Below, in pieces: positions 4,962 to 22,657 of a DNA stretch of 64,000 nt; position 1 is the stretch's first letter, and each line of letters opens with the position of its first letter. The notes under the pieces are model-generated. The model saw only the letters and a list, made by a program, of their open reading frames with translations, was not told the DNA's origin and made no database searches. Source of the DNA: Collimonas arenae (GTDB lineage: Bacteria > Pseudomonadota > Gammaproteobacteria > Burkholderiales > Burkholderiaceae_D); the NCBI RefSeq assembly GCF_001584165.1, contig NZ_CP013233.1, forward strand, positions 186,001 through 250,000, given 5' to 3'. Made by a program: the position numbers and the translations under genes.

Positions 4962-5690
4962 TCAGGCGATGTCGAGGATGTCTGCCAGGTTGACTTCGTG
5001 TTCATCATCGCTCAGCAGCAAGGCGCGTTCGATGTCGATCAGATGCTGGTTCATCAAGCGCACCGCCTGCTTTGCGTCGCCGGTTGCGATGGCGTTAATC
5101 AGTTCTTCGTGTTCGTCGTTCGGACAGGCGGTCTTGTTGGGCGCCTGGTACAGGGCAATGATCAGGGAGCAGCGCGACACCAGTTCACGCAGGAAGCGGG
5201 TGAGCACCGGATTGCCGGCGCTCTCGGATAACAGGATGTGGAATTCGCCGCCGAGGCGTATCCATTTGGCGTGATCGCCGCTATGAAAGGATGCATGCTC
5301 TTCTTTCACAATCTGGCGCAAGCGGCTGATTTGCGTACGTGTCGCATGTTCCACCGCCAGTGGCACGATGGCGGCTTCGATAGCCCGGCGCGCAGCGAAA
5401 ATTTCGCGCGTTTCCTGTGGCGTCGGCTGAGCGATGATGGCGCCACGGTTCGGTCGCAGCTCCAGGATGTGATCGTGCGCCAGCCGTTGTATCGCCTTGC
5501 GCACGATGGTCCGGCTGACCGCGAACAACTCACACAGGCTGGCCTCTGTCAGCTTGGTCCCCGGCCGCAGGCGCTGGCTCATCACTGCCTTCAGCACCGA
5601 GTCGTAGATCTTTTGATCGACAACGCCGCTGCCGCGTTTGACGATGGCCCTGGCCGGCGCAGCAGCGGTGTCATCAGACTTTTTGCTCAT
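4962..5690 (-). CDS. GntR-family (FCD) transcriptional regulator
   Basis: 242 residues. The N-terminal winged helix-turn-helix (about residues 25-90) includes LRPGTKLTEASLCELFAVSRTIVRKAIQRL, split here as the typical GntR recognition region, followed by LRPNRGA. The C-terminal FCD ligand domain (about 105-225) shows the usual metal/ligand His positions in GEFHILL, NDEHEELI and MNQHLIDIE. GGGAA lies just upstream of the ATG. The gene precedes the TonB receptor on the same strand, and the ABC importer runs divergently. It is clearly paralogous to the GntR at 43532-44245, sharing PNRGA, the WIRL-GEFHI block and the spacing of the FCD motifs. Control of nucleoside uptake is inferred from position and the TTGTATACA sites. 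Confidence 0.92.
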   Translation of the reverse strand: MSKKSDDTAAAPARAIVKRGSGVVDQKIYDSVLKAVMSQRLRPGTKLTEASLCELFAVSRTIVRKAIQRLAHDHILELRPNRGAIIAQPTPQETREIFAARRAIEAAIVPLAVEHATRTQISRLRQIVKEEHASFHSGDHAKWIRLGGEFHILLSESAGNPVLTRFLRELVSRCSLIIALYQAPNKTACPNDEHEELINAIATGDAKQAVRLMNQHLIDIERALLLSDDEHEVNLADILDIA

Positions 5691-12285: not shown

Positions 12286-13260
12286 ATGAAACCATTCATA
12301 TTTGCCGCGCTGATCCTGTTCGCATTGATGTCCGTCATCGTCGCCCTCGCCATCGGCTTCGGTGGACCGCATGAGCCGCGGCCTATGGCAAGCATGAACA
12401 ATCCATTCAAAAGCGTCGATTTCTCCGACCTGCCGGCTATCCGCCGCTACGCGGCGCGCGACGGCGCGCAACTCGCATTTCGCCAATATCCTGCTGTCGG
12501 TGACCATCCCAAAGGCAGCGTGGTGCTGGTGCACGGATCGTCTGCGCGCAGCGATAGCATGCATGTGATGGCCAAGGCGTTCTCCGCTGCCGGTTATACC
12601 GCCTATGCGCTCGACATGCGCGGACATGGCGAGTCCGGCAGCAAAGGCAGCATTGCCTATGTCGGACAATTGGAGGACGACATCGAGGATTTCACGCGCG
12701 CGTTGACGCCGGCCATGCCGTCCACGCTTGCCGGCTTTTCTTCCGGCGGCGGATTCGTGCTGCGTTTCGCCGGTGGTCACAAGCAAACGCTGTTTTCCAA
12801 CTACCTGCTGTTGTCGCCATTCATCAGCCAGGATGCACCGACTTTCCGCCCTGACAGCGGAGGCTGGGTGAGTGTTGGTGTCCCGCGCCTGATGGCGATC
12901 AGCCTGCTGAATGCGATAGACATACATGCGTTGAATGGGCTTCCTGTCGTGCGCTTCGCACTCGACGAACAAGCCAAGCCTTTCCTGACCCCGGAGTATT
13001 CGTATGCACTGACGCAGAACTTCCGGCCACAGGCGGATTGGCAGGCGAACATACGCGCAGTCCGGCAACCGCTACGGCTGGTGGCGGGGCAGGATGACGA
13101 GGCATTTCATGCCGAACGTTTCGCTGAAGTGTTCAAGGCAGCAGGTAAGGATGCGCCTGTCACCTTACTGCCTGGGATCGGGCACATCTCGTTGACGCTT
13201 GACCGAACCGCGGTTCAGGCGGCGGTGGCGGCTGTCAACGGCATGAACCGGTTTCGGTAG
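12286..13260 (+). CDS. Alpha/beta-fold hydrolase (lysophospholipase-like), membrane-anchored N-terminus
   Basis: 324 residues; AGGAGA lies 6 nt before the ATG. An N-terminal hydrophobic helix (residues 5-28) suggests membrane anchoring or export. The catalytic domain has VVLVHGSS oxyanion region, the MRGHGESG loop, nucleophile elbow GFSSG with Ser152, a late Asp in AGQDDEAF and His in GIGHISL. This resembles the serine aminopeptidase S33/lysophospholipase (Hydrolase_4) group. Substrate unknown. It stands alone between the hydroxylase gene and a SnoaL-like gene. Confidence 0.85.
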   Translation: MKPFIFAALILFALMSVIVALAIGFGGPHEPRPMASMNNPFKSVDFSDLPAIRRYAARDGAQLAFRQYPAVGDHPKGSVVLVHGSSARSDSMHVMAKAFSAAGYTAYALDMRGHGESGSKGSIAYVGQLEDDIEDFTRALTPAMPSTLAGFSSGGGFVLRFAGGHKQTLFSNYLLLSPFISQDAPTFRPDSGGWVSVGVPRLMAISLLNAIDIHALNGLPVVRFALDEQAKPFLTPEYSYALTQNFRPQADWQANIRAVRQPLRLVAGQDDEAFHAERFAEVFKAAGKDAPVTLLPGIGHISLTLDRTAVQAAVAAVNGMNRFR

Positions 13261-13455
13261 GAAAATATTCTTCCGTCGACATGTTTCGTCCGCCGCGCTC
13301 CTGGCTGCGCATATGATCAAGCACGGCGGGTCTTGTGCTGATGCCGATGCGGATGTGTTGCCGGGGGAAGGCATTTGCGTGTCGACACGAACGCAATCCA
13401 CAGAACGTATAAAATGAGCCGCGTTCCCAACACTCTTTTCAATCCCGGAAAAATC

Positions 13456-13833
13456 ATGCCGCCAATCTCGCCTCAAGCCATCGTTCAAGCACAGCTGGAC
13501 GCCTATAACGCCAAGGATATCGATGCCCTGCTGGCGACCTACGCGGCTGATGCGGAGCAGTACCAGTTGCATGGCGACCTGCTTGCACGCGGCCATGAAC
13601 AGATGCGGACGCGCTTCCTGACGCGCTTTGCCGAACCGGATCTCCATGCACGCCTGCTGTCGCGCACGGTCATGGAAAACATCGTCATCGACTTCGAACT
13701 CATTACACGTAATTTTCCCGAAGGCGCCGGAACGGTGGAAATGCTGTGCGTCTACGAGATTGCCGGTCAGCGCATCGCGAAGGCGTCGTTCGCTGTTGGC
13801 AAGACGACGCTGGCTGCTGCATCCTCATCCTGA
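13456..13833 (+). CDS. SnoaL-like / nuclear transport factor 2 family protein
   Basis: 125 residues from ATG 13456 (GGAAAA upstream); the upstream extension to 13375 is not supported. The N-terminal pattern of Gln-rich helix then DAYNAKDIDALLATYAADAE, followed by G-x-GHEQMRTRF, is the SnoaL-like steroid-isomerase fold signature. Such small cone-shaped proteins may be enzymes or ligand-binding subunits; no catalytic role can be assigned here. No signal peptide. Confidence 0.75.
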   Translation: MPPISPQAIVQAQLDAYNAKDIDALLATYAADAEQYQLHGDLLARGHEQMRTRFLTRFAEPDLHARLLSRTVMENIVIDFELITRNFPEGAGTVEMLCVYEIAGQRIAKASFAVGKTTLAAASSS

Positions 13834-13909
13834 GTGAGTTCCCCTGTCGGCAACACGGAAGATGTCGGCAGCCGTAGCCAATTTGTTAACGAATACTGAT
13901 GAGCAGGAC

Positions 13910-14287
13910 ATGGATCGGAAGAATTCAAGGCTTCAGCGTCACCTTTATCTGGCAAGCGCCATTGTCTTGCTGGCTGGGTTGTTGAGCGCCGGCCTGGTCT
14001 ATTACTCCGCCTCCGGCGGCTACAATCGTGCGCTCGGCTATGACGTGGTGGGCGGCAATGTCTATTCTGTCGCGCCGGATGAATCGAAGTCCTATCGTCG
14101 CGACATGGAAATGTACAGCGGTAAGTCAGGTTTGCTCATCGCTGACTTCAATGGCTGGCTGGCCAGCCTTTGGCACGGCAAGCGGTTGGCTTATGTGCTG
14201 GCTATTTCTGCGGCCTTCATCTCCTACGCCTGTTTCTGGATCGCACGCGACCTGGATCTGGCCGGCACGGAGGGGCCGGAGGATTGA
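13910..14287 (+). CDS. Hypothetical membrane protein with two transmembrane segments
   Basis: About 125 residues if started at ATG 13910 (AGCAGG just upstream); an in-frame start at 13862 is also possible. Two hydrophobic helices, about residues 11-33 and 97-116, flank a soluble loop containing VVGGNVYSVAPDESKSYRRDME. The N-terminus is basic, so it is probably cytoplasmic with the loop in the periplasm. I do not recognise the family. Confidence 0.65.
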   Translation: MDRKNSRLQRHLYLASAIVLLAGLLSAGLVYYSASGGYNRALGYDVVGGNVYSVAPDESKSYRRDMEMYSGKSGLLIADFNGWLASLWHGKRLAYVLAISAAFISYACFWIARDLDLAGTEGPED

Positions 14288-14460
14288 TTTTTCGTTGACG
14301 CTCCCGTTTTCGATTGATGTCGCGGCAGCGCTGTTGCTTAGTTAATCGCCGTATGGCAACATGCTGCGGCAATCAAGGGGGAGCAGGCGCGCCGGAAAGA
14401 CGGCAACAATTGAACGGCTTGTCGCGACCATACGTCAGTGATCAACGGAAAAGAAAAACC

Positions 14461-14976
14461 ATGTTCAAGAAGATAGCGATGTCGACCATGCTTGCGCTGG
14501 CTGCGCAGGTCTCCTATGCAGACGACGCCAATGTTGTGGCAGCAGCCAAACTGGCTGACAGCATGCACTTGCAAGAGCGGATCAGCGGTTTCAAATTGCA
14601 GGCGCAAGCCATGGGCCAAAGGCAAATCGACCAGATCGTGATGCAGATCCAGAAAAGCGTGCCGCAGCTGAGTGATACCCAGAAGACCGCGATCCGTGTC
14701 GCCGCCGGCGAATTTATCGCCAGCGTATCCAATTCCTGGAGCAGCGAAGAAGTCGCGAAGATTTACACCACATCGTTGACCAAGGATCTGCCGCCAGAGG
14801 TGATCGGAAAAATTACCGATTTTTACTCTACGGAGCAGGGGCAGATGGCCTTGCAGGCTTCCAGCAATGCTGACCAAAGCATCGTTAGCTACATCTCCAG
14901 TGCGCAGGAAAAGGCGATGGCGACCAGCTATCCCGTTCTCATGGACAATTTCAAAAGTATTATTACCGGCAAGTAG
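14461..14976 (+). CDS. DUF2059 family exported protein
   Basis: 171 residues from ATG 14461. A signal peptide (MFKKIAMSTMLALAAQVSYA) is cleaved before DDAN. The mature part is helical and matches the DUF2059 pattern with FYSTEQGQMALQ near residue 120-132, where family members have a conserved FY-T-GQ motif. Function of the family is unknown; periplasmic location is inferred from the signal. Upstream frames to 14314 lack support. Confidence 0.8.
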   Translation: MFKKIAMSTMLALAAQVSYADDANVVAAAKLADSMHLQERISGFKLQAQAMGQRQIDQIVMQIQKSVPQLSDTQKTAIRVAAGEFIASVSNSWSSEEVAKIYTTSLTKDLPPEVIGKITDFYSTEQGQMALQASSNADQSIVSYISSAQEKAMATSYPVLMDNFKSIITGK

Positions 14977-15026
14977 TCAAAGAGGCGGCACGATTGCCAT
15001 ATCGGCTTTTATTTTCCAGTTGACCC

Positions 15027-15488
15027 ATGCATGAAGCATCAGCCGTAATCCGCCTGGCGAAAGGCGGTGATAGCGCCGCCATCCAGAATTTGTACCTAGA
15101 GTTGACCGGTGACGTGCGGGTACATGTCTTGCCCGAACAGATCGAGGCGATGCATGCCGATCCTGCAACACATCTTCTGGTGTGCGATATCGCCGGTAAT
15201 GTTTATGGAACGGCGCTGCTGTCGCTGTGCGCCGACGCGATGTATGGCAAGCAGCCTTTTGCGACAGTGGAAAACATCATTGTTGCGAGCGCCGCTCGTG
15301 GCACAGGATTGGGCCGCCAACTGATGGCAAGTATCGAAACGATTTGTGCCAGCCATGACTGTTCCAAGATCATGCTGCTGAGTTCCTCCAGCCGCAGCGA
15401 AGCCCATGCATTTTTCGCGAGTTGCGGATTTTCCGGCGACAAGAAGCGGGGCTTCGTAAAATATCGCAGTCAATTCCATACGGCTTGA
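15027..15488 (+). CDS. GNAT-family N-acetyltransferase
   Basis: 153 residues. The acetyl-CoA binding core is visible as VENIIVASAARGTGLGRQLMASIE (motif A, R-G-x-G-x-G type) and a C-terminal EAHAFFASCGFSGDKKRGF (motif B). Typical of single-domain GNAT enzymes that acetylate small amines. The next gene, 19 bp downstream, encodes a second GNAT protein with only distant resemblance, so the two may be co-transcribed. Substrate unknown. Confidence 0.85.
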   Translation: MHEASAVIRLAKGGDSAAIQNLYLELTGDVRVHVLPEQIEAMHADPATHLLVCDIAGNVYGTALLSLCADAMYGKQPFATVENIIVASAARGTGLGRQLMASIETICASHDCSKIMLLSSSSRSEAHAFFASCGFSGDKKRGFVKYRSQFHTA

Positions 15489-15507
15489 AAAGAATGCAGA
15501 ACCAACA

Positions 15508-15942
15508 ATGAATACCGAATCAAATATTGAGTTACGCGCATTCGTCATCGCGGACTATGAGGCGGCTTTTGCATTGTGGTCGTCGATTGACGGACTCTAC
15601 CTCAGCGAGTCTGATACGAAAGAAGCCGTCGCTGTTTTCCTGGATCGCAATCCCGGTTTCAGCGTGGTTGCCATCGATGAGCGCGGCAACATGGTCGGGG
15701 CGGTCTTGTGCGGGCACAACGGCCGCGCCGCTTCCCTGTATCACCTGGCTGTGGCCGAAAGTGCCCGCGGCAAAGGCGTAGGGCAACGGCTGGTGCAGTT
15801 TTGCATTGCAAGACTGACTGCAGCAAATGTCGCACGCTGCAGTGTCTTCGTCTATACAGACAATGAAGTCGGAAATCGCTTCTGGCTAAACAACGGCTGG
15901 TACGATCCAGACACCTGGAAGGTGTTGCAAAGACGTCTTTAA
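15508..15942 (+). CDS. GNAT-family N-acetyltransferase
   Basis: 144 residues; the frame begins MNTESNIELRAF. Motif A reads LYHLAVAESARGKGVGQRLVQF (Q/R-x-x-G-x-G type), followed by FVYTDNEVGNRFWLNNGW. It has the RimI-like arrangement of small GNAT enzymes. Probably co-transcribed with the preceding acetyltransferase. Substrate unknown. Confidence 0.85.
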   Translation: MNTESNIELRAFVIADYEAAFALWSSIDGLYLSESDTKEAVAVFLDRNPGFSVVAIDERGNMVGAVLCGHNGRAASLYHLAVAESARGKGVGQRLVQFCIARLTAANVARCSVFVYTDNEVGNRFWLNNGWYDPDTWKVLQRRL

Positions 15943-15968
15943 GGTTGAGTAGTCATTGCCTTTCCGGC

Positions 15969-17012
15969 TCAATGCATCTGTAACACGCGCCCTGCACGTC
16001 GCGCTGCTGCGGCCAGATACAGCGGCGATGGCGCCCGCAGGTTTTCGCTATAGCAGGTGTAGACCAGCTTGATCACATGATCATCATCGGAGGCGATGGC
16101 AGTGGTGAACAGGTCTTGCCAGGTATCGGCGCTGTCCGGCAACACATCTTCCTCTATCAGTAGCGCAGCAGCCGGCGCCAATGCCGGCGCGCCGATCGAC
16201 ACATAGGCGGCGCATACTGCAGCCCACAGTTCCGGCATCAACTGCGATACCAGCACCGACGGTAGATGTTCGAACACACGCCGCGCCGCATGCAGACCGG
16301 TGACAATATGCAGGGCGGTGAAATTATTGGTTTGCCAGTACAAGGCGATGGCTGCCTGCGCCATCTGGTCCAGCAGCTGTGGCTGCGCTGGCGCCGCCGG
16401 CAATGCCGCCTGGAAGCGCGGTTCGGCCGCCGCCGCGCGCAGGCGCGAAGTAATCATGCCACCGTCGAATTGCACGCCGTGCACTGCGCGCGACAAGCTG
16501 TCAAAACCGGCACGTACTGAAACCGCAGGTGTGCGCGGCTGTGAACCTGTGTCGATATGCAGGTTGCCGCTGGCCAGCGCTGCCAGTCCGGCGGCGATTT
16601 CCCCGACATGCTGTGCTTCCAGGCCGTAGCTGAGGCGGATCAACGCGTGAAAGGCACCGCTGGCCGGTGCGAAGGGCATGTGCTGAAGCGTCTGCGCCAG
16701 CACAGCATCGGCGCCGCTGCACCAGATCCACTCTTCGAAGCAATCGCGCAGGGCGACAAATGAGGTCGGATTGCCGACGCCGGCCTGCCATGTTTCGCGC
16801 TCGACGACTTTGGTTGCCGCAGGTGCGGCAAGGGCGTAGCGGCTTTCCCACATGTCAAAGAAATCCTGCAGTCGTTCCGGCGGAGCGCCCATTGCCGCCA
16901 GCGCGCAGAGCGCCATCGGACAGTGATTAGTGGTGCCGTTGCCGCCGAGTGCAAAGCGTGCGTTGGCATCGAGCAGCCGGTGCAGCGTCGCCTGTTGTAA
17001 TCGTTGCTTCAT
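15969..17012 (-). CDS. Questin oxidase family protein (DUF4243)
   Basis: 347 residues. The N-terminus has GGNGTTNHCPMALCALAAMGAPPERL, split here around the NH-P-MAL histidine motif typical of questin-oxidase-like proteins; further family blocks are SGAFHALIRLSYGLEAQ and LHIVTGLHAARRV with conserved His, and HVIKLVYTCYS near the C-terminus. The fungal founder carries out Baeyer-Villiger-type ring opening of an anthraquinone; bacterial members are largely uncharacterised. The gene is divergent from soxR across 88 bp containing a promoter with a 19-bp spacer, so redox control of a quinone-modifying enzyme is a reasonable inference. No signal peptide. Confidence 0.8.
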   Translation of the reverse strand: MKQRLQQATLHRLLDANARFALGGNGTTNHCPMALCALAAMGAPPERLQDFFDMWESRYALAAPAATKVVERETWQAGVGNPTSFVALRDCFEEWIWCSGADAVLAQTLQHMPFAPASGAFHALIRLSYGLEAQHVGEIAAGLAALASGNLHIDTGSQPRTPAVSVRAGFDSLSRAVHGVQFDGGMITSRLRAAAAEPRFQAALPAAPAQPQLLDQMAQAAIALYWQTNNFTALHIVTGLHAARRVFEHLPSVLVSQLMPELWAAVCAAYVSIGAPALAPAAALLIEEDVLPDSADTWQDLFTTAIASDDDHVIKLVYTCYSENLRAPSPLYLAAAARRAGRVLQMH

Positions 17013-17047
17013 GCGGTAAATCCTCCGAATAGCTGATTGACCACGGT

Positions 17048-17078
17048 AGTATGAAAGTTAAAGTAAACTTGAAGTCAA
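17048..17078 (-). promoter_or_regulatory. SoxR-type promoter of the questin-oxidase gene
   Basis: On the minus strand TTGACT (17073-17078) and CATACT (17048-17053) are separated by exactly 19 bp, the over-long spacer typical of MerR/SoxR-activated promoters. The spacer holds the dyad AAGTT-N6-AACTT. This resembles the SoxR box core (CAAGTT/AACTTG) with a degenerate centre. Activation by the adjacent SoxR is inferred. Confidence 0.65.
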
Positions 17079-17100
17079 GCACAAAATACGGAGTCAGGAA

Positions 17101-17586
17101 ATGAGCGACAAAATGATTACCATCGGCGAGCTGGCCAAGCGTTCCGGCGTCGCCGCCAGCGCCTTGCGCTTCTATGAAGATGCGGGCTTGTTGCATAGCA
17201 CCCGCACAACCGGGCGTCAGCGGCAATTCTCGCGCGATGTGCTGCGTCGAGTCGGATTCATCCGGGTGGCGCAGTCGATCGGCCTGCGTCTGGAAGAAAT
17301 CCGGGCGGCCTTGTCGACACTGCCGGAGAATCGCACGCCGACCAAGCAGGATTGGGAGCGCTTGTCGCGCTCCTGGCGGCCGCTGCTGCAGCAACGCATC
17401 GATGCCCTCACCGCGCTGCGCGACCAGCTCAGTTCCTGCATCGGCTGCGGCTGCCTGTCGCTGCAGAAGTGTGCGTTATATAACCCAGAGGATATTGCCC
17501 AGACGCGCGGCAACGGTCCGCGTTACCTGCTGGGGAATAGCGCCGAGGAGCTGATGGCTGGCCGCTCCTTGAACGAGTCAGATTGA
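17101..17586 (+). CDS. soxR: Redox-sensitive transcriptional activator SoxR
   Basis: 161 residues. MerR-family winged helix-turn-helix at 5-75 (TIGELAKRSGVAASALRFYE, R-F-S-R-D-VLRRVGFIRVAQ), a dimerisation helix, then the [2Fe-2S] cluster ligands Cys113, Cys116, Cys118 and Cys124 in the exact SoxR spacing CX2CXCX5C. SoxR responds to redox-active compounds such as quinones, phenazines and pigments through oxidation of the cluster and untwists promoters with long spacers. Here it faces a questin-oxidase gene, whereas no soxS is visible in the window, as usual outside enterics. GGAGT upstream of the ATG. Confidence 0.93.
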   Translation: MSDKMITIGELAKRSGVAASALRFYEDAGLLHSTRTTGRQRQFSRDVLRRVGFIRVAQSIGLRLEEIRAALSTLPENRTPTKQDWERLSRSWRPLLQQRIDALTALRDQLSSCIGCGCLSLQKCALYNPEDIAQTRGNGPRYLLGNSAEELMAGRSLNESD

Positions 17587-17620
17587 CGGCATTATTGTCA
17601 AAATGAAATGAGCGGTTGGC

Positions 17621-17652
17621 CACCGAAAATGTGATCTGCCACTTTTTCGGTG
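17621..17652 (+). terminator. Hairpin after soxR
   Basis: Arms CACCGAAAATGTG (17621-17633) and CACTTTTTCGGTG (17640-17652) pair with one mismatch around a 6-nt loop. Internal A/T runs in the arms give a terminator-like element in either direction. Lies between soxR and the RcnR operator. Confidence 0.5.
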
Positions 17653-17680
17653 CGCCAGTATACGTTTTTGATTTCTCGAT

Positions 17681-17701
17681 ATAGTATACCCCCTATACTA
17701 T
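17681..17701 (+). promoter_or_regulatory. RcnR-type operator upstream of rcnR
   Basis: Perfect 8-bp arms ATAGTATA and TATACTAT flank a central CCCCC, ending 14 bp before the rcnR ATG. RcnR/CsoR-family repressors recognise a G/C-tract flanked by TA-containing inverted repeats (family form TACT-G6-N-AGTA). This strongly suggests autorepression of rcnR-rcnA relieved by nickel or cobalt. Confidence 0.8.
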
Positions 17702-17715
17702 TAATTGAGATCATC

Positions 17716-17994
17716 ATGGGTCACACCATCAAAGACAAACAAAAACTCCTGAACCGGGTACGCCGCATCCGCGGTCAGGTCGATGCGATCGAACGCGCCC
17801 TGGAAGAAGAAAAGGGATGCATGGATGTGCTTCAGCAAATTACCGGTTGTCGCGGCGCGATGAACGGCTTGCTGGCAGTGGTGCTGGAAGACCACATACG
17901 CACGCATCTGGTCGATGTTGAACATGAGGCGCATGACGGGCATGGAGATGCCAGAGAGCAATTGATCGACGTTGTCAAAAGCTACTTCAAGTAG
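17716..17994 (+). CDS. rcnR: Nickel/cobalt-responsive repressor RcnR
   Basis: 92 residues from ATG 17716; the frame opens earlier at 17650 but that would overlap the operator. All-helical DUF156 (CsoR/RcnR) fold without a classical HTH. The metal ligands match the RcnR set: His3, Cys35, His60 and His64, distinguishing it from FrmR (lacks His3 ligand pattern for metal) and CsoR. It represses the adjacent efflux gene until Ni or Co binds. Operator with CCCCC centre lies immediately upstream; rcnA follows 90 bp downstream on the same strand. Confidence 0.9.
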   Translation: MGHTIKDKQKLLNRVRRIRGQVDAIERALEEEKGCMDVLQQITGCRGAMNGLLAVVLEDHIRTHLVDVEHEAHDGHGDAREQLIDVVKSYFK

Positions 17995-18084
17995 GCGCGC
18001 TACGCGTTTCCTGCTGTCCAGTTCTCTGGCACAGCAGTCGTCCGGCGATTTTTCGGCAATCCAGATATTTTGTAGGCCATTTCC

Positions 18085-19200
18085 ATGACTGAATTTTCCA
18101 CTCTGTTGCAGCAGGGCGCTTCCAATGCGTGGCTGTTCATTCCCAGCGCCATTTTGCTCGGTGCGTTGCACGGCCTGGAGCCTGGACATTCCAAGACCAT
18201 GATGGCAGCTTTCATTGTCGCCATCCGCGGCACCATGACGCAAGCGATTTTTCTGGGCCTGTCCGCCACGTTGTCGCATACCGCGGTGGTATGGGCAGTG
18301 GCGTTGATCGGTTTATATTTCGGCCGGCAATGGAATGCGGAAGCCAGCGAGCCGTATTTTCAACTAGCATCCGCGATATTGATCGTTGGTGTCGCACTGT
18401 GGATGATGTGGCGCACGTGGCGGCAGCAGCGCTTTGCAGATCATGATCATGCCGATCATCCGCATGACGAAACAAAGCGCATAGATACGGGTCATGGCCT
18501 GGTGCGACTTGAAATATTCGAGGACGGCGTGCCGCCTCGCTTCCAGCTATTCACCGATAGCAAGCACGGTCACATATGGCCGGCCAATCAGGTCAGGATA
18601 GAAACGGAGCGAGCAGACGGCAGCAGCCAGTTATTCACCTTCGTGCGGCGCGACGGCTATCTCGAATCGGAGCAGGTGATTCCCGAGCCGCACGAATTCG
18701 TTGCCCGCTTACGCCTGGGCCATGAGCAACACAGCCATGACTATGACCTGGAATATCTAGAGCACGATCACCATCATCACGCCATCCATGACTATGACGG
18801 ACTGGATGTGTCGGCGCCGGGTTACCAGGATCCGCATGAACTGGCGCACGCCAACGATATTCGTCATCGCTTCGCCAACCGAGAAGTGACGACCGGGCAA
18901 ATCATCATGTTTGGTTTGACTGGAGGGCTGATTCCTTGTCCAGCATCCATCACGGTGCTGCTGTTATGCCTGCAACTGAAGAAGATCGCACTCGGCGCCA
19001 CACTCGTCTTGTGCTTCAGTATCGGCCTGGCGCTGACCATGGTGATGTCGGGCGCTTTGGCGGCCCTGAGTGTGAAGCACGTTTCCAAGCGCTGGGGCGG
19101 TTTCGGCGAATTTGCGCGGAAAGCCCCTTATTTTTCGGGTGCTCTGATCCTGTTGGTTGGCGGCTATGTCGGTTATCAAGGTTTGCATCAGTTGATGTAA
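18085..19200 (+). CDS. rcnA: Nickel/cobalt efflux protein RcnA
   Basis: 371 residues. N-terminal membrane segments include LLGALHGLEPGHSKTMMAAF with the NicO/RcnA family HGLEPGHSK motif, and C-terminal segments include GGLIPCPASITVLLLCLQL. The central loop is His-rich (HDHADHPHDE and HDHHHHAIHDYD) as in RcnA, suited to binding Ni or Co in the cell. At 371 residues it is longer than the E. coli protein: an extra soluble segment of about 80 residues (residues 140-220) beginning RLEIFEDGVPPRFQLF lies before the second His cluster. Cotranscribed with rcnR. Exports metal across the inner membrane. Confidence 0.92.
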   Translation: MTEFSTLLQQGASNAWLFIPSAILLGALHGLEPGHSKTMMAAFIVAIRGTMTQAIFLGLSATLSHTAVVWAVALIGLYFGRQWNAEASEPYFQLASAILIVGVALWMMWRTWRQQRFADHDHADHPHDETKRIDTGHGLVRLEIFEDGVPPRFQLFTDSKHGHIWPANQVRIETERADGSSQLFTFVRRDGYLESEQVIPEPHEFVARLRLGHEQHSHDYDLEYLEHDHHHHAIHDYDGLDVSAPGYQDPHELAHANDIRHRFANREVTTGQIIMFGLTGGLIPCPASITVLLLCLQLKKIALGATLVLCFSIGLALTMVMSGALAALSVKHVSKRWGGFGEFARKAPYFSGALILLVGGYVGYQGLHQLM

Positions 19201-19342
19201 ATTCATTCTGACGCAAGATTTTTGCTTCCGCGATATTACCTGGGAGGTAATCGACCGTGCGCAACGCCGCGCGCAGAATGATTTCGTCGACTACGACAAA
19301 TCAACCTGAATCGATAATCCGATAACCTTCAAGGAGCAGATC

Positions 19343-19741
19343 ATGACCAGCACCAATACTGCAAAGAATATCGCCGAACAAGCTGCCGCCATCGCCACCC
19401 GTTATCTCGCCGCCTGGGACGAACTGGATGCGAGCCGCCGCCGTGCCCGTATTGTCGAAGTGTTCACGCCGGATGCTGTCTATCTCGACCCGATGGCGCG
19501 TAGTGCAGGCCACGATGGCCTGGATGCGATGATCGGCGCGGTCCAGCAGCAGTTTGCGGGACTGCGTTTTCGCCTCCATGGCAAGCAAGACGGCCATAAC
19601 AATGTCGTGCGCTTTTCCTGGACGCTTGGCGCGGAGGGAGCAGAGCCGGTCGCCCATGGCACCGATGTCGTGGTGGTTGCCGACGATGGCCGCATCAGCA
19701 GCGTTACCGGCTTCCTCGATGCGCTGGCGTTGCCTGCCTGA
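19343..19741 (+). CDS. SnoaL-like / nuclear transport factor 2 family protein
   Basis: 132 residues; AAGGAG lies 8 nt upstream of the ATG. Pattern YLAAWDELDASRRRARIVEVFTPDAVYLDP and a GHDGLDAMI turn are typical of SnoaL-like proteins that bind hydrophobic ligands. No signal peptide. It precedes an XRE-MmyB regulator on the same strand, and genes of this type are often targets of MmyB-like regulators. A catalytic role is not established. Confidence 0.78.
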   Translation: MTSTNTAKNIAEQAAAIATRYLAAWDELDASRRRARIVEVFTPDAVYLDPMARSAGHDGLDAMIGAVQQQFAGLRFRLHGKQDGHNNVVRFSWTLGAEGAEPVAHGTDVVVVADDGRISSVTGFLDALALPA

Positions 19742-19824
19742 TGCTCAGGTGGCAGCGTGGTTAGCTGTTATCACGTCGCAAAGAAACAGGGATACACTGC
19801 GCAATCAACTTTTGGAGATCGCCG

Positions 19825-20691
19825 ATGGCTACATCGCAAGTCGCGTCGCAAGCACCCGCCCGGAGTGCCGGGCAGGCGTCGGGCAACCGCTACTTCAACG
19901 ACTTCGCCGCGGCCTTGCGCTACTGGCGCGGCAAGCGCGGTTATAGCCAACTGCGCTTGTCCACCGAAAGCCATATCTCGCAGCGTCATATCAGTTTCCT
20001 TGAAAGCGGGCGCTCACAACCAAGCAAGGAATTGATCCTCAAGCTTGGCACGGTGCTCGATATTCCGCTGCGCCAGCGCAATGTGATGCTGCTGGCCGCC
20101 GGTTTCGCCCCCGCCTACCAGGAGCGCAAATTGTCCGATCCCGAACTGCAGTCGGTCAAGCAGGCGCTGGATTTCATGCTGGCGCAGCAGGCACCTTATC
20201 CGGCACTGGTGGTGGATCGCCTGTGGAACCTGGTGATGAGCAATGGCCCGGCGGCGATGATGATCCGCTGGCTGCTCGACATGCCGGACAGCCAGCCGTT
20301 GCCGCGCGAGGGCGTCAACGTGCTCAAGCTGATCCTCGATCCGGCCGGCATCCGCAAGCACCTACGCAACTGGCAGGACGTCTGCGCCGACTTGTTGCAC
20401 TGGATTCAGCGCGAGGCGATGAGCGACGGCCCCGGCAGCGAAGCTACTCTACTGCTGGAAGAGTTACTGGCCTTCCCCGGCATCAAGGCGGTCAGCCAGA
20501 CGCCGAACCTCGATACCCGTGCATTGCCATTCCTGGCGATGCAGATCGACAAGGACGGCGTTGAGCTGAACCTGTTCACCTCGATTGCCACCATGGGCAC
20601 GCCGCACGATGTCACCGTGCATGAGCTGCGCATCGAGTCTTTTTTTCCGGCCGATGAGGCCACTGCGGCCTGGTTCAAACACCGCGCATGA
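19825..20691 (+). CDS. XRE-family regulator with MmyB-like ligand-binding domain
   Basis: 288 residues from ATG 19825 (GGAG 8 nt upstream). The N-terminal HTH_31/XRE domain (about 25-95) contains GYSQLRLSTESHISQRHISFLESGRSQPS, split around the recognition helix. The C-terminal domain carries the MmyB-like pattern PYPALVVDRLWNLVMSN, ILDPAGIRKHLRNW and TSIATMGTPHDVTVHELRIESFFPAD, which is shared with regulators that bind small hydrophobic ligands. It probably controls neighbouring genes such as the SnoaL-like gene 83 bp upstream or a remote enzyme gene. Confidence 0.9.
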   Translation: MATSQVASQAPARSAGQASGNRYFNDFAAALRYWRGKRGYSQLRLSTESHISQRHISFLESGRSQPSKELILKLGTVLDIPLRQRNVMLLAAGFAPAYQERKLSDPELQSVKQALDFMLAQQAPYPALVVDRLWNLVMSNGPAAMMIRWLLDMPDSQPLPREGVNVLKLILDPAGIRKHLRNWQDVCADLLHWIQREAMSDGPGSEATLLLEELLAFPGIKAVSQTPNLDTRALPFLAMQIDKDGVELNLFTSIATMGTPHDVTVHELRIESFFPADEATAAWFKHRA

Positions 20692-21346: not shown

Positions 21347-22657
21347 TCAAGCGGCGCGCTTGAAACTGACGCTGGCCCGCAGTCCGGCAAGCCGGAGCCC
21401 CTGACCCAGGCGCACCTCGGCCAGGTGCAGGTCGGCGACTTGTTTGACGATCGCCAGGCCAAGGCCGCTGCCGGTCGCTTGCGGCACCAGGCAGCGATAG
21501 AAACGATCGAATACACGTTCCCGTTCTTCAGGCGGAATGCCGGGGCCGCTATCTTCAATCTCCAGCACGATCTCGTGCTGCCCTGTGCGAATGGCCACAT
21601 CAACCTGACCGCCGATGGGCGTATAGCGCACTGCGTTGTCGATCAGGTTGCGCAGCAGAATGTGCACATGGTGCGCCGATCCCATGATTGCGCCGGCGTC
21701 CAACTGTTCAACGCCGAGGTTGATCTTGCGTGTGTTGGCATACGGGATCAGGTCAATCGTCACCTCGCGCGCAATCTCGTGCAATTGCAGCGGAGCGTGC
21801 GGATCGTGATTGCCGCCCGACTCCAGGCGCGACACCATCAGCAATTGTTCGACCAGGTGGCTGGTGCGTTTGACGCCAGCCTTGAGATCGGCCAGCGCCC
21901 TTGCTTCGCACCCGCTGCCGAGCGATTGTTCGACCAGCTGCGTCTGGATCTGCAGAGTCGCCAAAGGAGTGCGCAACTCATGTGAGGCGTCGGCAATGAA
22001 TTTCTTCTGGCCTTCCAGCGCCACGCCCAGGCGCTCCAGCAGGGTGTCCAGGGCCTGTGTTAGCGGCTTGATTTCGGTAGGCTGGTCTGGCGCGGCCAGG
22101 CGGCCCAGCTTGTCGGGGGTACGCTTGGCCAGTTCCTGCGAAAGACGCGTCAGCGATTGCAAGCCGGTGCCAACGCTCCAATGGATCAGCAAGCCCATGA
22201 TCAGCAGGAAGATCAGCAACGGGATCAGTGAACGCAGCGCATGATCGACCGCAATGTTGCGGCGGCCGCTCAGCGATTGCGCCACCTGGATAACGTTGCG
22301 GTCGGTCTTGCGGATAAATATTTTCCATTCGCCGTCCTGCCATTGCACCACGCTGAACCCCGGTGTCGAAAATTGCGGCAGGACGATCTCGGGATGGGAG
22401 TTGTAGTTCAATTTTCCCTGCTGGTCCCAGATCTGCAGAATGCTGTCGTCGCCGTCGTACTTCAAGCCCGGCCCGCTCTGTCGCAGATCTTCGCTGTTGA
22501 CGTGGGCCGGAATGGCGGACGCGATCTGGTTCATCTGGTCATCGTAGATATCGGCCAGCAGGGCGCGGTCGATCAGGTAGTCCGCCAAGACGAAACACGC
22601 GCCCAGGATCGCCAGCCCGGAGAGCAGCCAGAACAGCAAACGGTTCCTAATTGACAC
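21347..22657 (-). CDS. Two-component sensor histidine kinase (QseC/TctE-like)
   Basis: 436 residues with two transmembrane helices (about 8-27 and 143-162) flanking a short periplasmic sensor of about 115 residues. HAMP-like segment follows, then the H-box FIADASHELRTPL (phospho-His near 225), N-box LLRNLIDNAVRYTP, G1 DSGPGIPPEERERVFDRFYR and G2 GSGLGLAIV. It phosphorylates the response regulator encoded just upstream, with which its start overlaps by 11 bp. The pair is divergent from the TonB receptor-ExbBD-TonB-phosphatase operon, suggesting control of that operon. Stimulus unknown. Confidence 0.93.
   Translation of the reverse strand: MSIRNRLLFWLLSGLAILGACFVLADYLIDRALLADIYDDQMNQIASAIPAHVNSEDLRQSGPGLKYDGDDSILQIWDQQGKLNYNSHPEIVLPQFSTPGFSVVQWQDGEWKIFIRKTDRNVIQVAQSLSGRRNIAVDHALRSLIPLLIFLLIMGLLIHWSVGTGLQSLTRLSQELAKRTPDKLGRLAAPDQPTEIKPLTQALDTLLERLGVALEGQKKFIADASHELRTPLATLQIQTQLVEQSLGSGCEARALADLKAGVKRTSHLVEQLLMVSRLESGGNHDPHAPLQLHEIAREVTIDLIPYANTRKINLGVEQLDAGAIMGSAHHVHILLRNLIDNAVRYTPIGGQVDVAIRTGQHEIVLEIEDSGPGIPPEERERVFDRFYRCLVPQATGSGLGLAIVKQVADLHLAEVRLGQGLRLAGLRASVSFKRAA

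Follow-up and report, generated by a model that had tools for sequence, protein, structure and literature searches.

The window analysed here is a 64,000-nucleotide stretch of the Collimonas arenae genome (RefSeq assembly GCF_001584165.1, contig NZ_CP013233.1, positions 186,001 to 250,000 of the forward strand). Within it, a gene encoding a questin-oxidase-like protein of the PF14027 family lies back to back with soxR, and the two genes are separated by a promoter region that contains a SoxR-box-like dyad. The features of the locus, in window positions, are the following:

15969..17012, minus strand: PF14027 (questin-oxidase-like) protein, 347 residues, ATG start (open reading frame and Pfam profile)
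17021..17026, minus strand: GGAGGA, a ribosome-binding-site-like sequence 8 nt 5' of the ATG (17012) of the PF14027 gene (sequence reading)
17037..17064, plus strand: soxR promoter-like site, TTGACC, 16 bp, TAAAGT, overlapping the PF14027 promoter and the box (consensus scan)
17048..17078, minus strand: PF14027 gene promoter, -35 TTGACT at 17073-17078, 19-bp spacer at 17054-17072, -10 CATACT at 17048-17053
17058..17073, unstranded: SoxR-box-like dyad TTCAAGT-NN-ACTTTAA (read on the minus strand), between -35 and -10 (promoter comparison)
17101..17586, plus strand: soxR, 161 residues, MerR family, CX2CXCX5C motif, enzyme-associated SoxR lineage (profile, PDB match and tree)

The open reading frame at 15969-17012 matches the Questin_oxidase profile PF14027 with 94.4 bits (cut-off 27), and that at 17101-17586 matches the SoxR equivalog TIGR01950 with 216.5 bits (cut-off 116.9), confirming the divergent arrangement put forward in a preliminary description of this DNA. 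The top PDB match of the window SoxR is E. coli SoxR (2zhg, E 1.8e-41), and the cysteines of the [2Fe-2S] motif CX2CXCX5C are C113, C116, C118 and C124. The whole genome (4.72 Mb, one contig) contains one PF14027 gene and one SoxR scoring over the family cut-off.

The TTGACT-19 bp-CATACT promoter with a SoxR-box-like dyad, which had been proposed for the enzyme gene, was located at 17048-17078 on the minus strand. The spacer reads TCAAGTTTACTTTAACTTT (minus strand), and the layout is that of the E. coli soxS promoter, used as a yardstick (TTTACC-19-TATACT). The 31-base promoter string has a single match in the window at up to three mismatches, and none in 100 shuffles. When aligned with the E. 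coli sequence CCTCAAGTTAACTTGAGG, the region is identical at 13 of 18 positions, a value reached in none of 100 first-order Markov randomisations. A chance origin of the box was rejected on the basis of these controls and of its conservation across aligned promoters. Genome-wide, the 21-base box pattern identifies one site at up to two mismatches (control, 0) and six at up to three (reversed control, 5), so that the five weak sites are indistinguishable from background; of the sites with three mismatches, L115 adjoins another MerR gene and L113 precedes a hutC-like gene. The exact sequence CCTCAAG-N6-TTGAGG is present once elsewhere in the genome (L001). The consensus scan for a soxR promoter returned one site, against a shuffle mean of 0.2, a result that alone is no proof of function; the overlap of this site with the box would fit SoxR autorepression.

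Conservation of the gene pair was assessed in two collections, which share genomes and are therefore not independent. The family sample comprised 145 genomes, of which 18 have PF14027 and 27 have SoxR over the cut-off. Both are present, by coordinates, in 15 genomes, as divergent neighbours in nine and apart in six; of these six, four are from the same genus, and G111 and G138 carry a distant enzyme. Named genomes were scanned with a query alignment of 24 relatives, which yielded 36 loci in 35 genomes (L071 and L072 are from one strain), spanning Collimonas, Glaciimonas, Paraburkholderia, Burkholderia, Undibacterium, Paludibacterium and metagenome-assembled genomes. soxR is the divergent neighbour of the enzyme at 21 of the 36 loci, and is the sole frequent neighbour, the next being a response-regulator-like gene (8/36). 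PF14027 is rare in wider samples, being found in 15 of 399 genomes of the order, 5 of 369 of the class and 5 of 398 of the phylum, counts that include the genome of the window. Thirteen further genomes of the order sample carry PF14027; SoxR exceeds the cut-off in five of these, and adjoins the enzyme in three. Neither SoxR adjacency nor the box was found at L205-L209 in the wider samples, and soxR was not seen by motif in the open reading frame listings of L210 and L211.

Presence of the box follows presence of soxR. Thirty of the 35 named genomes have SoxR over the cut-off, and all 30 feature the box at the enzyme promoter; the box is absent from the enzyme in the five SoxR-less genomes (L071, L077, L080, L081 and L088). 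The two traits thus agree in 35/35 genomes (Fisher's test, 3.1e-6; the genomes are related). In the 43-row clade of the enzyme tree, built after the removal of eight identical enzyme rows, box and SoxR agree throughout (38 yes/yes, 5 no/no), with four changes each. Considering well-supported branches only, this clade provides three independent contrasts, all in the expected direction, and the full set of 60 enzyme rows provides four, three or four as expected and none opposite. The 60 rows comprise 41 with both SoxR and box, 15 with neither, four with SoxR alone and none with the box alone.

The box does not require soxR as a neighbour. Of the 30 box-bearing named genomes, 21 have linked genes, and nine have no soxR inside the available flanks. 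These nine (Collimonas L061-L067, Burkholderia L082 and L096) retain the box with its -35 and -10 at the enzyme, which argues that the box is more than the operator of soxR itself. Absence or unlinking of the pair in close relatives, which the preliminary description named as a refutation, was examined: some close relatives do have unlinked genes, yet the box remained with the enzyme where the pair came apart. By our own sequence reading, a histidine kinase gene ends shortly before the enzyme at all but one of the seven unlinked named Collimonas loci (at L061 the kinase extends to 4917 and the enzyme starts at 5001). Its homologue in the window maps at 21347-22657, 4.3 kb off the enzyme, and the interval holds soxR plus five other genes. 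Of the unlinked Collimonas soxR genes, four were checked (L038, L041, L042 and L045); each has its own box, without clear -35 and -10 sequences, which would be compatible with autorepression.

The 41 box promoters were selected with an ungapped 24-base consensus that extends from the -35 through the full dyad and was derived from the same promoters, so that part of the constancy inside the consensus is built in. The -10 is not covered by the consensus, and its second-position A and last-position T are found at a constant distance in 41/41 promoters. When scored with the E. coli 18-mer, L074 reaches 11 (as high in 37 of 100 randomisations) and L075 reaches 9, the latter because its start was set too far upstream; both were counted as box-positive through the 24-base consensus (21/24 and 24/24, respectively). 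Taken together, control of the PF14027 enzyme by SoxR, as the preliminary description suggested, is well supported by sequence comparison.

A near-identical box of the TTGACCTCAAGTCGACTTGAA type was also observed next to a non-SoxR MerR-family gene in seven Paraburkholderia and Burkholderia genomes (G541:C186, G542:C1, G543:C17, G548:C2, G551:C4, G553:C39 and G565:C57), and is a possible confounder for box searches. The genome scan with the box pattern took in the window genome and 32 of the 35 named genomes (all but G554, G556 and G560); the reversed control gave three hits in total.

The SoxR proteins that accompany the enzyme form a separate lineage. Candidates with E <= 1e-20 and the cysteine motif were retained, and 122 rows were collapsed to 60, representing Burkholderiales and E. 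coli; the tree does not cover SoxR of Pseudomonas (P. aeruginosa) or Streptomyces. The 60 proteins split into groups of 42 and 18 with a support of 99/96 (careful tree; group layout from the quick tree). The smaller group comprises E. coli SoxR and 17 Burkholderiales proteins. The larger contains all 31 enzyme-facing rows and the unlinked SoxR of Collimonas (8) and Burkholderia (2), plus L151, from a genome with a distant PF14027 gene without the box. In the family sample, PF14027 occurs in 13/13 genomes with SoxR of the larger group and in 2/14 with the other lineage (Fisher's test 6e-6, uncorrected for kinship). The two groups differ at position 23 (E. coli 29), which is Arg in 42/42 enzyme-associated proteins and His in 18/18 others, at position 127 (E. 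coli 133; Tyr in 39/42, Arg in 17/18) and at position 42 (E. coli 48; Gln in 29/42, Arg in 18/18). The boxes also differ. Enzyme promoters feature the TTCAAGT type, whereas boxes found beside 14 soxR genes of the other lineage in the family sample are exact CCTCAAG (6) or variants thereof (6), none being found in two cases; the lineage-specific residues may read the differing box. In Undibacterium pigrum and U. jejuense the two lineages coexist, with one SoxR apiece and a distinct box for each. Opposite the second SoxR, which is of the other lineage, lies a SnoaL-like gene in U. pigrum and, by sequence reading only, a flavin reductase gene in U. jejuense. The existence of a dedicated SoxR lineage further backs the regulation of the enzyme by SoxR.

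These data hint at a Burkholderiales SoxR sub-family with the operator TTCAAGT-NN-ACTTGAA, as opposed to the CCTCAAG type, and with Arg29 in the helix-turn-helix part and Tyr133 by the cluster cysteines (E. coli positions). Its ancestral and main output might be a hydroquinone ring-cleaving dioxygenase, that is, inducible destruction of the reduced half-cycle rather than export or monooxygenation. We advance this proposal tentatively, at somewhat less than even odds.

The predicted all-helical fold of the PF14027 protein matches those of BTG13, PaD and AflY, in both fold and profile comparisons; the solved relatives were named questin oxidase, hydroquinone dioxygenase and AflY by their depositors. 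Residues H30, H122, H235, H312 and K315 are invariant across 47 aligned sequences and align with H55, H158, H296, H374 and K377 of BTG13, the iron site of which we take to consist of four histidines and carboxylated Lys 377. The enzyme is thus predicted to be hydroquinone-dioxygenase-like, and is probably iron-dependent. The preliminary description had questin oxidase open an anthraquinone ring, which is imprecise, as the substrate of fungal GedK is questin hydroquinone, the product of a separate reductase (PMC9890505).

The observed elements (both proteins, the box and its spacing, the conservation of the box and its dependence on the presence of soxR, the predicted fold and the His/Lys set) can be combined in a single model, in which a SoxR-box module switches on a hydroquinone-cleaving PF14027 enzyme and thereby ends redox cycling. 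Such a module would be of the non-enteric kind, in which SoxR acts directly on genes for redox enzymes or transporters and not through SoxS, but with a new output. [2Fe-2S] SoxR would occupy the divergent promoter of the PF14027 gene, which is over-long with its 19-bp spacer. Once its cluster is oxidised by a quinone or pigment that undergoes redox cycling, SoxR would distort the promoter and turn the PF14027 gene on, while the same SoxR-bound box would repress the overlapping soxR promoter. General cell reductases would supply the hydroquinone half of the cycle, which the enzyme would cleave with O2, ending the cycling irreversibly. Reduced quinones re-oxidise in air, and cleavage of the reduced form would remove the cycler. 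Sensor and enzyme are thus proposed each to handle one half of the same cycle, the enzyme attacking the reduced form. SoxR proteins answer several, not all, redox-active compounds, including quinones (PMC5288332, PMC4411124). A role of the pair in quinone defence is plausible. We assign a probability of about 0.56 to this joint reading.

Several points weigh against it. The right half of the window dyad is degenerate (ACTTTAA). The genomes are related and hence not independent, and the three contrasts in the 43-row clade and the four among all 60 rows are too few for significance. The four rows with SoxR alone (L020, L021, L097 and L105) are all distant enzymes; in three of the four, SoxR is of the other lineage. 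Two of the SoxR-less named genomes (L080 and L088) are metagenome-assembled, and the absence of soxR may reflect incompleteness. SoxR-less G541 has one box-like site, beside the non-SoxR MerR gene and away from the enzyme. With the solved fungal enzymes the protein shares 17-19% identity, so that the substrate is not transferable, and H58 of BTG13 corresponds to M33 in the window enzyme. GedK is described as a cofactor-free dioxygenase (PMC9890505), which speaks against iron; in contrast, structure 8yxs carries the title of an iron enzyme. A DUF4243 domain occurs in MinC, in the non-quinone pathway of minimycin biosynthesis (PMC8724604). Streptomyces SoxR was not activated by menadione bisulfite or paraquat (PMC5288332). 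No linked anthraquinone reductase was recognised among the eight neighbours scanned (12286-20691), to which this search was confined, and in the relatives the ranking of neighbours covers families found at 5 or more of the 36 loci, most neighbours being unannotated.

Alternatively, regulation might be as described while the substrate is another redox-active or electron-rich metabolite, such as a phenazine, an indole pigment or a polyphenol, produced by the cell itself or by its neighbours. The MinC pathway and the low identity to the fungal enzymes would agree with such a substrate, as would the fact that phenazines as well as quinones act on SoxR (PMC8859910, PMC5288332). The names given to the solved relatives and the retention of the His/Lys set count against this reading, and we consider a non-quinone substrate rather unlikely. 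Quite improbable, in our view, is that the protein works as a tailoring enzyme in the biosynthesis of a pigment or antibiotic of the cell itself, SoxR timing its expression to the appearance of that product. In Streptomyces coelicolor the SoxR targets SCO4266 and SCO1909 are similar to actinorhodin tailoring enzymes (PMC4146615), and other Collimonas feature further box promoters 5' of SnoaL-like and thiopurine-methyltransferase-like (TPMT) genes. Against this, soxR alone is a frequent neighbour (21/36 loci), and no polyketide synthase was recognised in the eight scanned neighbours, two of which are SnoaL_2-domain proteins; biosynthetic clusters were not sought beyond them in the window or elsewhere in the genome.

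Lastly, the box could serve soxR autoregulation only, the PF14027 gene being a passive neighbour. As this explanation would have it, the soxR promoter-like site shares sequence with the box, and a separate box is retained at each of the four unlinked Collimonas soxR genes that were checked. It is nevertheless disfavoured by the nine of 30 SoxR-bearing named genomes that keep the box with -35 and -10 at an enzyme away from soxR, and by the absence of the box in 5/5 SoxR-less genomes, and is very improbable. The reading in which SoxR induces a hydroquinone-cleaving enzyme remains the one we favour.

Other SoxR-type promoters and partners were observed in the relatives. In five other Collimonas (L186, L191, L196, L198 and L201), the promoter of a SnoaL-like gene is of the SoxR type (TTGACTTCAAGTTAAGTTGAA type, then TTTTACACT), and a sixth site, L187, adjoins the same divergent gene. 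SnoaL-like genes face SoxR of the other lineage in U. pigrum (L213) and, by sequence similarity, at L034; Pfam matches underlie these calls at L198 and L213 only. A TPMT-like gene has a box promoter in four other Collimonas and in Glaciimonas (L192, L195, L197, L200 and L202; Pfam basis for L197 and L202 only), the Glaciimonas gene being fused to a SnoaL_2 domain. In seven Collimonas, the promoter of a GntR/UTRA regulator (hutC-like), located beside a urocanase-looking gene, resembles the SoxR box promoter (L185, L188, L190, L193, L194, L199 and, in the window genome with three mismatches, L113; Pfam on L188 only), and may be either a real SoxR site or a coincidence. In relatives lacking the enzyme, soxR is back to back with genes for an FMN reductase (L031), a RidA-like protein (L037), DoxX (L046) or an HlyD-type efflux adaptor (L053). 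In Burkholderia multivorans, which has the enzyme at another site, the gene opposite soxR resembles, by sequence, that of an RND adaptor (L204). It is as if one operator slot had been refilled with different detoxifying genes. Assignment of the small neighbour at L048 as a PumA-like monooxygenase was unsupported, with no Pfam match. In the window, a CsoR/RcnR/FrmR-type repressor and a NicO nickel/cobalt exporter are directly 3' of soxR (17719-19200), apparently a metal-efflux pair without relation to the soxR module.

If correct, the model would provide a function for bacterial PF14027 members of the window type, add a ring-cleaving enzyme class to the SoxR outputs and describe a small inducible sensor-enzyme cassette for quinones. 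The pair would also be suited to studying how SoxR sub-lineages divide DNA sites and inducers. Collimonas feeds on fungi, and fungi make many quinones; the pair is therefore a candidate for bacterial tolerance of fungal pigments.

Among the literature matches listed, no PF14027/DUF4243 enzyme under SoxR was found in open-access papers. SoxR and 'questin oxidase' together gave no match there, and the word questin is absent from the main text of the P. xenovorans SoxR paper. The preliminary description regarded the module as undescribed in this form. This is too broad, since a SoxR-controlled modifying oxygenase is already known in form; the novelty lies in the enzyme class as a SoxR output and in the dedicated SoxR lineage, both of which appear new within the open-access literature.

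The E. coli soxR-soxS locus is likewise a divergent pair with a 19-bp spacer and a dyad between the hexamers, but the partner is a transcription factor, the box is CCTCAAGTTAACTTGAGG and SoxR belongs to the other lineage. The mfsA-soxR pair of Stenotrophomonas maltophilia is also divergent, with the box between -35 and -10, a TTGACC-19 bp-CATGCT promoter and an autorepressed soxR; its partner, however, is an efflux pump and not an enzyme, and the box is ACCTCAACTGCAGTTGAGGT (PMC4411124). The window enzyme has the predicted fold of fungal BTG13, PaD and AflY, and can be aligned with them at the NH, H, H and HxxK positions; the solved fungal proteins are about 100 residues longer, with the low identity and the H58/M33 difference reported above. 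GedK, grouped with the family through the questin-oxidase name and a review, works with the reductase GedF (PMC9890505), a counterpart of which was not recognised among the eight window neighbours scanned. Modifying oxygenases driven by SoxR are exemplified by PA2274, PumA and SCO1909 (PMC8859910, PMC4146615). In PA2274/PumA and in SCO1909/EcaB of S. coelicolor, as would be the case in the window, SoxR directly activates a single oxygenase acting on, or resembling enzymes for, redox-active quinones or phenazines. The window enzyme differs from these in belonging to PF14027, in its predicted all-helical BTG13/PaD-like fold and in its resemblance to ring-cleaving dioxygenases. PA2274 and PumA of Pseudomonas aeruginosa are presumably one gene. 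Unlike these systems, the window features a divergent two-gene cassette together with a separate SoxR lineage and box variant, as judged against the Burkholderiales and E. coli proteins compared.
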